From Candidatus Dormiibacterota bacterium (GTDB taxonomy: Bacteria; Patescibacteriota; Saccharimonadia; UBA4664; DATLOE01), in the NCBI GenBank assembly GCA_035536395.1, contig DATLOE010000003.1:1-35712 (forward strand): 35,712 nucleotides of DNA, in the 5' to 3' direction. The translations under genes and the position numbers were made by a program. This document shows positions 4,921 through 23,591 of the stretch, piece after piece. Under the pieces are notes generated by a model. It was not told where the DNA came from. It made no database searches and was given only the letters and a program-made list of their open reading frames with translations. Numbering within the stretch: position 1 is the stretch's first letter; each line of letters opens with the position of its first letter.

Positions 4921-5451
4921 TTATTCCTTACTATTTTTAATTGCGTCCAGCACTGTGACTATTCCGCGTACGTTGCCGCCCATAACCCCTACTAGCCCGC
5001 TCATTGGTGCTGTAAAAGTTCCTACCAGCTTGGCTAGAAGCTCTTCCTTGGTTGGCAGTGTAGCCAAAGCCTTAACCTCCTCGGCCGAGAGCAGCTTGCC
5101 GTCAGCTGTAATGGCGCCGACGATATCGAGCGCTTTATGTTGAGCGGCGTACTGAAACACTACCCGGGCCGGGGCGATTTCATCATCGGCCGATACGGCT
5201 AGTGCCATGGGGCCGGTAAATGAACTTGGATCTATATGCGCCATTGCCGGCGTGTCTTTAACGGCAATACGCAGCAGGGTGTTCTTGGTTACCCTGTAGC
5301 TAATGCCTTCTTCACGCAGCGTGTCTCTTAGCTCGTTAATCTCAGCTACGCTTAAGCCGCGGTAATCAGTAAGTACCGCTAGCTTCAGCTGGCTTAAATC
5401 CTGCTTGAGCTGCTCTACATTCTGCTGTTTGACTTCCTTGGTTTTGGCCAT
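4921..5451 (-). CDS. rplJ: 50S ribosomal protein L10
   Basis: 176 residues, a normal length. The N-terminal domain that binds 23S rRNA (LAVLTDYRGLSVAEINELR, YRVTKNTLLRIAV) is followed by the C-terminal helix to which L7/L12 dimers dock. It is the base of the stalk. AAGGA lies 7 nt before the ATG. A clear L10 leader RNA precedes the gene, so L10 (with L7/L12) probably represses its own synthesis as in other bacteria. Unlike in most genomes, rplA does not lie directly upstream; a nucleotide-metabolism block separates them. Confidence 0.97.
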   Translation of the reverse strand: MAKTKEVKQQNVEQLKQDLSQLKLAVLTDYRGLSVAEINELRDTLREEGISYRVTKNTLLRIAVKDTPAMAHIDPSSFTGPMALAVSADDEIAPARVVFQYAAQHKALDIVGAITADGKLLSAEEVKALATLPTKEELLAKLVGTFTAPMSGLVGVMGGNVRGIVTVLDAIKNSKE

Positions 5452-5470
5452 AAAAAAATCCTTGGGTGTA

Positions 5471-5547
5471 CCAAAGACATGAGTGCGCCGGAAGTGGCGT
5501 TTTACCTCGGGAGCGGATTAAGCCCTGAAGGCTGCTCCTGTCTTTGG
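5471..5547 (-). promoter_or_regulatory. L10 leader (ribosomal protein autoregulatory RNA)
   Basis: The minus-strand RNA is closed by a perfect 9-bp stem, CCAAAGACA (5539-5547) with TGTCTTTGG (5471-5479). Inside is an arm GGAGC-AGCC-TTCA-GGGCT followed by TAATCC, GCTCC and CGAGG. The GGAGC/GCTCC pairing, the TTAATCC bulge and CGAGG after the stem match the conserved L10 leader consensus (Rfam L10_leader family, from memory). It lies between the promoter and rplJ and should bind L10-L7/L12 to repress the operon. Confidence 0.85.
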
Positions 5548-5558
5548 TGAACTAAAGT

Positions 5559-5587
5559 ATAATAGCGATTTTACTCCCTGGTGTCAA
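5559..5587 (-). promoter_or_regulatory. Promoter of the L10 leader-rplJ-rplL unit
   Basis: The minus strand reads TTGACA (5582-5587), a 17-nt spacer, then TATTAT (5559-5564). The -35 is perfect and the -10 matches 5 of 6. The predicted start lies just before the L10 leader. Confidence 0.85.
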
Positions 5588-21917: not shown

Positions 21918-22907
21918 CTAACGGATTAATTCTGAGGCCTTGGTGAGGTCGCCCTTTGCGCCCAATATCACCAAACGATCTCCCGGGTAAATCATTTCCC
22001 TACCGGTCGGCCGCACCTTACTGCTGCCATCTGCTCCGTTAATAGCTATTACTGTGGCGCCAATGTCTCCCTCGGCCAGTTTTTTGCCTAAATGATGCCC
22101 AGCTAGTGGAGACTCCTCGCTCACAATCATCTCCTCTACCTCTAGATCATGAGAGGAGCCGGAACTGCTAACGATATCCATATAGTCAACCACATTCGGC
22201 CTGAGCGCCATGGAGGCCATATGGTATCCGCCGATTTGATATGGCAAGGCAACCTTATCGGCTCCGGCGTGTTTCAATTTAAGTTCATTTTCCTGCCGGT
22301 TAGCACGAGCCACAATGTAGAGCTCGGGGTTGAGCGATCTGGCCGCTAGCGTTACCAACAAGTTAGCCGGATCTTCCCCTAGGCTCGCCACCAGGCCTGC
22401 TGCCCGCTTAACGCCGGCTTCTACCAGCACCTCTTCAGAGGTGCTGTCGGCCTGCACGGCAATATAGCCCAAGGCAAGGGCATCATCGACTTTAGATTTG
22501 TCTCTGTCCAGAGCTACAAACGGTACGCCCTCAGTTGCCATTTCCCTGGCCACCTGACTGCCGACCCGCCCCAAACCGCAGACTATGTAGTGATTTTTCA
22601 TTTTATTAATCTTTACCTGCAACCGTTTTTTGTGAACAGTGTCACTTACACCCATGATATATTCCGCAAACCACTTAAGCAAATAGCCTATTAGGGCGAA
22701 GCTGCTCAGTATCAAGAATATGTTCAAAGCCCTGGCTAGGGGGTGGTGAAGCTCGGCGTATCCGAAATGCCGCAGCATAACAAGCAGCGACTGGTAGAGG
22801 GCATCGCCAGTCGAAAGCCCTTCAGTCGCGCTGAACCCGGCTGTTCCAATAGCCAATAAACTAATAAACAGCAGTATGACTACTACTGGGCGTTTATGAG
22901 TACTCAC
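21918..22907 (-). CDS. Two-helix potassium-channel-like protein with RCK (TrkA-N/TrkA-C) domain
   Basis: 329 residues. Helix 1 (about 8-24), a pore loop, helix 2 (about 59-80), then a TrkA-N Rossmann domain (HYIVCGLGRVGSQVA, Gly111-Gly116) and a TrkA-C domain at about 255-329. This matches MthK-type channels that ligand binding to RCK opens. The selectivity filter, usually TVGYGD, reads HFGYAE (47-52), so potassium selectivity is doubtful. It has a GTG start without Shine-Dalgarno; TAAAAT ends 6 nt upstream. The product is a membrane protein, perhaps an ion channel or a receptor-like relative. Confidence 0.85.
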   Translation of the reverse strand: MSTHKRPVVVILLFISLLAIGTAGFSATEGLSTGDALYQSLLVMLRHFGYAELHHPLARALNIFLILSSFALIGYLLKWFAEYIMGVSDTVHKKRLQVKINKMKNHYIVCGLGRVGSQVAREMATEGVPFVALDRDKSKVDDALALGYIAVQADSTSEEVLVEAGVKRAAGLVASLGEDPANLLVTLAARSLNPELYIVARANRQENELKLKHAGADKVALPYQIGGYHMASMALRPNVVDYMDIVSSSGSSHDLEVEEMIVSEESPLAGHHLGKKLAEGDIGATVIAINGADGSSKVRPTGREMIYPGDRLVILGAKGDLTKASELIR

Positions 22908-22913
22908 ACTGTT

Positions 22914-22919
22914 ATTTTA
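22914..22919 (-). promoter_or_regulatory. -10-like box of the RCK gene, possibly leaderless
   Basis: The minus strand reads TAAAAT (TATAAAAT in context), 6 nt before the GTG. No good -35 is visible. Confidence 0.4.
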
Positions 22920-22956
22920 TAACGGTAACGCTTATTTTGCCATATCGACCCGTATA

Positions 22957-22985
22957 TTGACACATTACACTTCTTATGTTAATAT
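22957..22985 (+). promoter_or_regulatory. Strong plus-strand promoter with no downstream gene
   Basis: Perfect TTGACA (22957-22962), a 17-nt spacer, then TAATAT (22980-22985). Expected start near 22992. It points into a gap where the only following gene is on the other strand. Confidence 0.75.
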
Positions 22986-22991
22986 ATCACC

Positions 22992-23124
22992 TGTTGTTGG
23001 TAAGGAATATTAAAAAATAGCGGTTTGGCAGCGGTAATAAGCACTTATGTTATGAGGATTTACTACCGGGGCCAATACAGGCCCGCCTATGAAAAGGAGG
23101 GCTTGGTGGCCGCTCACCCTTTTT
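22992..23124 (+). ncRNA. Candidate structured small RNA
   Basis: It follows a consensus promoter and ends at a run of T (23120-23124), with a second terminator at 23139-23165. Predicted helices are a long imperfect hairpin CGGTA...TACCG (23032-23068) with inner stem CTTAT-GTT-ATGAG; GGGCC-AATACA-GGCCC (23069-23084); and GGTG-GCCGCT-CACC (23105-23118) flanked by AAAAGG-AGGG/CCCTTTTT. AGCGG at 23019 could instead pair with CCGCT at 23110. The first ATGs give either two codons or a frame that runs through the terminator into rpsI antisense. I recognise no known RNA family. Boundaries are approximate. Confidence 0.55.
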
Positions 23125-23138
23125 ATATCTGTTCCAGT

Positions 23139-23165
23139 AAAAAACCGCCTTTACGGCGGTTTTTC
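23139..23165. terminator. Terminator of the ribosomal cluster after rpsI, working in both directions
   Basis: A 10-bp stem AAAAACCGCC/GGCGGTTTTT (23140-23149 with 23155-23164) with a 5-nt loop. It starts right after the rpsI stop and also suits plus-strand transcripts of the candidate RNA. Confidence 0.88.
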
Positions 23166-23591
23166 TTATCGTTTAGAGAATTGCGGGGCTTTACGGGCCC
23201 GTTTTAGGCCAGGCTTCTTGCGCTCTTTCTCACGCGGATCACGCGAGAGATAGCCGGCTTTCTTAAGCGTGCCTCTAAGATCTTCATTCAGCTCGGTAAG
23301 TGCCCGGGTAATAGCTAAGCGGGCGGCCTCGGCCTGGCCGTGCTTGCCGCCTCCCTCTACACGCAGGCTAACCTCAAACTTCTTGTCGTAGCCAGCTAGA
23401 ACAATAGGCTGGTTCAAAAGATGAATTAAAGTAGCATTATTAAAGTAGCTCTCTGCCGGTGCATCGTTAACGAAAATCTCCCCTTTACCAGGGTATAATC
23501 GTGCGGTGGCTATGGCCTCTTTGCGACGGCCTAAACCGTAATGGTATTTGCCTTTAGCTTTGGTGGTGTTTTGCTCAGTGTTTTCAGCCAT
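23166..23591 (-). CDS. rpsI: 30S ribosomal protein S9
   Basis: 141 residues: YGLGRRKEAIATARLYPGKG at the start, VEGGGKHGQAEAARLAI in the middle, and the C-terminal tail ending KAPQFSKR, which reaches the P-site tRNA. A short charged N-terminal lead (about 15 residues) is ordinary variation. It overlaps rplM by 8 nt and is the last gene of the long ribosomal transcript, directly followed by a terminator. Confidence 0.98.
   Translation of the reverse strand: MAENTEQNTTKAKGKYHYGLGRRKEAIATARLYPGKGEIFVNDAPAESYFNNATLIHLLNQPIVLAGYDKKFEVSLRVEGGGKHGQAEAARLAITRALTELNEDLRGTLKKAGYLSRDPREKERKKPGLKRARKAPQFSKR

Follow-up and report, generated by a model that had tools for sequence, protein, structure and literature searches.

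What, if anything, does the plus strand encode in the gap downstream of rpsI in this reduced, 642-kb Saccharimonadia genome? In the window (the whole stretch of 35,712 nucleotides that was analysed), positions 22908–23165 form a gap of 258 nt flanked by the minus-strand ORFs 21918–22907 and 23166–23591. The initial annotation had proposed a small RNA gene there, behind a consensus promoter, and was right that all the neighbours lie on the minus strand. The genome (G000) is the single representative of its family in our comparison, which comprised 10 other genomes of the order and 382 further genomes of the class; its nearest matches judged by rpsI have ~70% identical proteins and belong to other families of the same order. 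The features discussed below are as follows.

21918–22907, minus: TrkA-domain K+ channel-like gene, the divergent neighbour (TrkA_N, Pfam E 1.5e-32)
22957–22985, plus: sigma-70 type promoter, TTGACA-17-TAATAT, with the TG of an extended -10; predicted transcription start ~22992
22992–23138, plus: candidate small RNA; codon score not gene-like
23019–23114, plus: three-way junction, the best predicted fold
23019–24/23109–14, plus: P1, AGCGGU/GCCGCU, predicted closing stem of the junction
23025–23075, plus: P2, long imperfect hairpin, predicted arm of the junction
23078–23105, plus: P3, GC-rich hairpin, predicted arm of the junction
23093–23100, plus: AAAGGAGG, perfect Shine-Dalgarno (SD)-like octamer, partly paired in P3
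23105–23124, plus: possible first terminator, GGTGGCCGCTCACC-CTTTTT, competing with P1
23140–23164, both strands: bidirectional intrinsic terminator with a 10-bp stem, common to the rpsI operon
23166–23591, minus: rpsI (ribosomal protein uS9), the convergent neighbour

A consensus promoter on the plus strand

The promoter is present as first described, with TTGACA starting at 22957 and TAATAT ending at 22985, and it has a TG before the -10 besides. The promoter at 22957 is probably real, because sequences with at most two mismatches to TTGACA-16/18-TGn-TAnnnT occur 10 times in the genome, as compared with 0.42 ± 0.86 times in dinucleotide shuffles, a 24-fold enrichment. A looser count over a 2.5-kb stretch gave 3 sites where 2.6 were expected by chance. 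Comparable consensus promoters are found in this genome upstream of the genes for RNase P, rRNA, tRNA, ribosomal proteins and small membrane proteins.

In relatives, the same motif is associated largely with translated genes. Positions 22955–22985 are identical at 28 of 31 bases to a promoter in G009 (E 1.7e-5), which has an SD-led ORF downstream, and a promoter in G010 is also close. SD-led ORFs, of which several are short, follow the motif in five relatives (G001, G003, G007, G009 and G010), and it drives protein genes in most of the relatives in which it was found; a small ORF also lies behind such a promoter in the genome itself (C3:83453). Because of this association, we keep a decayed small gene as a reading: the promoter would drive, or once have driven, a short ORF, and the transcript would be an mRNA or what is left of one. 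The codon evidence that bears on this is given below.

On the opposite strand, the promoter of the TrkA-like gene (22914–22943) stands head to head with the plus-strand promoter, with merely 13 bp between the divergent -35 regions. Such proximity, and a terminator common to the convergent units, would suit a purely cis-acting role, in which transcription tunes the TrkA-like and rpsI neighbours and the RNA itself is irrelevant. A structured RNA would then be unneeded, however, and relatives keep both neighbours without the unit; we regard such a role as quite improbable.

Three further observations concern promoters and leaders. The TrkA-like gene seems to be leaderless, as a TATAAT-like box lies immediately 5′ of its GTG start (22907–22943) and is kept in L104, L105 and L108. 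A ribosomal protein L10 leader (RF00557, 50.7 bits) lies on the minus strand at window positions 5443–5565, with a consensus promoter at 5587. Behind the plus-strand promoter at C6:72338 (L188), a long near-perfect palindrome, AACAGTGGGACAGATCCGG...CCGGAATTGTCCTACTGTT, lies between the consensus promoter and the SD AAAGGAG; it is possibly a structured leader.

The predicted transcript and its ends

The predicted length of the RNA ranges from ~133 nt, if it ends at the T-run at 23120–23124, to ~175 nt, if it extends to the end of the second terminator. Three nested or sequential hairpins had been described within it. Two of these, at 23069–23084 and 23105–23118, are predicted hardly ever to form in the finished RNA, with a probability close to 0; the ensemble instead strongly favours a single three-way junction, with pair probabilities mostly of 0.8–1.0. 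The 23105–23118 hairpin could act during termination. Folding of 22992–23138, the transcript without its last terminator, gave z −2.35 (p 0.015), a modest stability, while its ensemble diversity was below that of 96% of shuffles. The fold would not be remarkable by itself, because 5–8% of 147-nt windows match its z (5.5% at z ≤ −2.5, 8.2% at z ≤ −2.0). A 100-nt core, the ends of which were chosen from the fold, has z −4.25, at the level of 0.6% of 100-nt windows. Promoter and terminator bracket the structured stretch.

Both elements proposed to end the transcript, the T-run at 23120–23124 and the bidirectional terminator, are present, the latter as a perfect 10-bp inverted repeat (23140–23149/23155–23164). 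Judging from the sequences of relatives, this terminator is no evidence of a plus-strand gene, because at three loci (L112, L114 and L118) a bidirectional terminator follows rpsI where the RNA gene is absent.

Elsewhere in the genome, the minus strand of C20 holds a second non-coding RNA candidate (L207, 7521–7782): an extended TTGACA-17-TATATT promoter is followed by ~260 nt in which long stems are predicted (MFE −99 kcal/mol) and by a terminator, with no SD-led ORF of at least 40 codons and no Rfam match in the stretch.

Coding potential

It had been stated that no ATG in the gap opens a plausible ORF with a ribosome binding site. The perfect SD-like octamer AAAGGAGG was overlooked in that statement: 5 nt past it, a GTG at 23106 begins a stretch of 33 codons that reaches 23207. 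This GTG frame, however, crosses the terminator, and its codon score is not that of a coding gene. The frame is open over 23025–23207, without a stop codon before the terminator, and it continues into the antisense of rpsI. Its codon score, 0.025 bits/codon, corresponds to the 5th percentile for true genes, and 32% of off-frame open stretches score at least as high. A Pfam search of the frame gave no match; this result, the codon score and the tblastn controls, all negative or at chance level, speak against a coding gene.

That the stretch is coding appears unlikely, because the frame crosses the terminator, has no Pfam match and a poor codon score, and resembles CTP synthase only at the level of shuffles. 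This resemblance is a weak stretch, YRPAxxKxGLV...HPF, that is like the C-terminus of CTP synthase; among 150 shuffled sequences, 11 have some match of equal quality. The stretch, the perfect SD with a GTG 5 nt downstream and the use of the motif in relatives all speak for a very small or remnant protein gene. Set against the missing stop codon, the codon score and the shuffles, they leave that origin doubtful, though still to be reckoned with.

An extra stretch after rpsI

The initial annotation had made its claim depend on conservation in close relatives, and here that claim is weakened. A covariance model built from the single sequence, a blunt tool that could miss diverged relatives, found in the 11 genomes of the order itself alone plus a chance-level match (E 2.2), in 393 genomes of the class itself alone, with no homolog in the 392 others; a scan of all of G003 gave no convincing match. 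DNA searches of the genus, family and order revealed no homolog of the candidate RNA, nor did searches of plasmids and phages or exact patterns in IMG/VR. The nearest genome is related at the level of the order only and is too distant to decide the matter; as far as can be tested, the candidate RNA appears lineage-specific.

In four relatives (G001, G003, G004 and G035), rpsI adjoins the same TrkA-like gene across a gap of only ~40–50 nt. The ~200 nt that comprise promoter, RNA and terminator are therefore either extra in this genome or lost in all four. No convincing flanking repeats, as footprints of an insertion, were found around the extra stretch. These data bear on a further reading, that of an insertion without function, in which a genuine promoter sits idle in spacer DNA and the terminator is that of rpsI only. 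The absence of conservation wherever it was searched for, the relatives with a bidirectional terminator after rpsI and no RNA gene, and the only modestly unusual fold are all consistent with it. Nevertheless, a consensus extended promoter would rarely be kept by chance in a reduced genome of 642 kb, and the fold from promoter to terminator is better defined than 96% of shuffles, so we hold an idle insertion to be unlikely.

In one relative (G007; L021, the same region as L106), a promoter and a small ORF follow rpsI with the same hairpin, TCTCCGCAGGACCCTGCCCTGCGGAGA, on either side. This insert is another accessory cassette at the post-rpsI place.

Housekeeping RNAs are elsewhere or not detected

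An Rfam search of the stretch, which had been called for, returned no family at gathering score, the weaker matches being driven by the terminator. The earlier remark had been that no 6S, SRP, tmRNA or RNase P motif was recognizable there, and none of these families matches the candidate. RNase P and tmRNA are encoded on C6 and the rRNAs on C17; tmRNA and RNase P RNA were rejected as identities for the candidate, with no Rfam match there and both genes on C6.

The Rfam 6S model has matches in five genomes of the order, in four of which the match appears to lie on the wrong strand, as judged by conserved promoters and the orientation in L135. In the four loci concerned (RF00013 matches in L131–L134), the true gene would be the reverse complement, with conserved -35 and -10 elements at 17-nt spacing, as in L135. 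A new model, made from these five 6S RNAs of the order in corrected orientation, found 6S RNA in 9 of the 11 order genomes, this one included (C6:42225–42376, plus strand; L150 1501–1652; E 5e-16), ~650 nt before RNase P. The 6S RNAs that the Rfam model had missed, in G000, G001, G003 and G004 (L150; L147, L148 and L149), have E values of 5e-16 to 2e-18 with the new model. The candidate scores <4 bits with it and was rejected as 6S, the genome's own 6S RNA lying elsewhere.

SRP RNA (RF00169) was not found in any of the 11 order genomes, its core pattern occurring at control level only. Nor was a convincing SRP54 domain (PF00448) found in these genomes, while 14 of 14 control genomes were positive; the best partial match had 22.8 bits against a cut-off of 22.7 and covered 38 of 196 positions. 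With neither SRP RNA nor SRP54 detected, the order seems to have lost the SRP pathway (Ffh/FtsY); Parcubacteria, too, have been reported to lack it (PMC4508563). Since the order seems to lack the pathway, the candidate is presumably not the missing SRP RNA, and it was rejected as such, having neither an Rfam match nor the AGCAGC/GNRA core. A divergent copy of 6S or SRP RNA might have been suspected, as the length and layout resemble those of the order's 6S and SRP RNA was found nowhere in the genome. Given the genome's own 6S RNA, which refutes the former, and the absence of SRP54 from 11 of 11 order genomes save for marginal partial matches, we consider the chance of such a copy negligible.

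The initial annotation had left the choice between a regulatory and a housekeeping RNA. The housekeeping part does not hold: apart from SRP RNA, all housekeeping RNAs lie at other loci of the genome, neither SRP RNA nor a convincing SRP54/FtsY was detected across the order, and searches of the order and class turned up no homolog of the candidate, with none at the syntenic place in relatives either. The candidate small RNA stands, as a plus-strand unit without a convincing ORF; that an unannotated transcription unit of this kind exists is well supported.

A proposed lineage-specific small RNA gene

We conclude that the locus is, with a probability of roughly one half (0.52), a small RNA gene complete in itself and specific to its lineage, with a probably regulatory role, as predicted from its sequence. 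The promoter is well supported, and a folded, probably non-coding RNA is moderately supported by the predictions. RNA polymerase with the main sigma factor would start at ~22992, the RNA of 133–175 nt would fold into the three-way junction, and transcription would stop at the T-run at 23120–23124 or at the bidirectional terminator; the RNA would not be translated. Its function is probably regulatory, we infer, and the likeliest use would be that of a trans-acting RNA pairing with mRNAs through its unpaired tails, either the A-rich 5′ tail (22992–23018) or the C/U-rich 3′ tail CACCCUUUUU (23115–23124). Such pairing could cover purine-rich ribosome-binding sites. Against a small RNA gene stand the lack of a homolog, and with it of covariation, in the genomes and sequence sets searched, the modest stability of the fold, the perfect internal SD and the use of the motif in relatives mostly to drive protein genes.

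In target prediction, the best duplex that the 3′ tail formed with any of 641 start regions had −39.7 kcal/mol, which 1 of 300 shuffles reached. The target is G-rich, lies inside a coding region and pairs through several G-U pairs, and it was also the best partner of 37 of the 300 shuffles; we take it as a weak lead.

Most likely, the candidate is a small RNA of an ordinary kind, specific to its lineage, rather than a new housekeeping RNA. It is improbable that it represents the first example of a novel class of structured RNAs restricted to this family-level Saccharimonadia lineage; such a class might comprise, for example, a regulator of translation or host interaction, with AAAGGAGG as an anti-Shine-Dalgarno-binding element in a hairpin of the three-way junction. 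If transcribed, the candidate would be a small RNA ready for testing in a reduced genome; as an orphan, it serves mainly as a marker for metatranscriptomes and new genomes of the same family. A search of the open-access literature, limited in extent, found no work on regulatory RNA in Saccharibacteria.

Comparison with known systems

The small SRP RNA of bacteria (RF00169) is, like the candidate, small and structured, and it is the sole housekeeping RNA that was not located in the genome; the candidate, however, lacks its AGCAGC/GNRA core, and the order seems to lack an SRP54 partner. With 6S RNA (RF00013) the candidate shares a similar length, a closing stem, a long imperfect hairpin and a short hairpin on the 3′ side, but neither sequence nor model similarity, and 6S RNA is encoded elsewhere. 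The promoter-plus-small-ORF units of related Saccharimonadia have nearly the same promoter (L142 and L143) or the same post-rpsI location (L106, in G007); they carry an SD, an ATG and an ORF, whereas the candidate unit does not. With the orphan intergenic small RNA genes of bacteria, it has in common a consensus promoter of its own, no convincing ORF, a structured body, one or more terminators and an intergenic place; it differs from them as a predicted RNA with no more than a weak lead to a target, found in a single one of the genomes searched.
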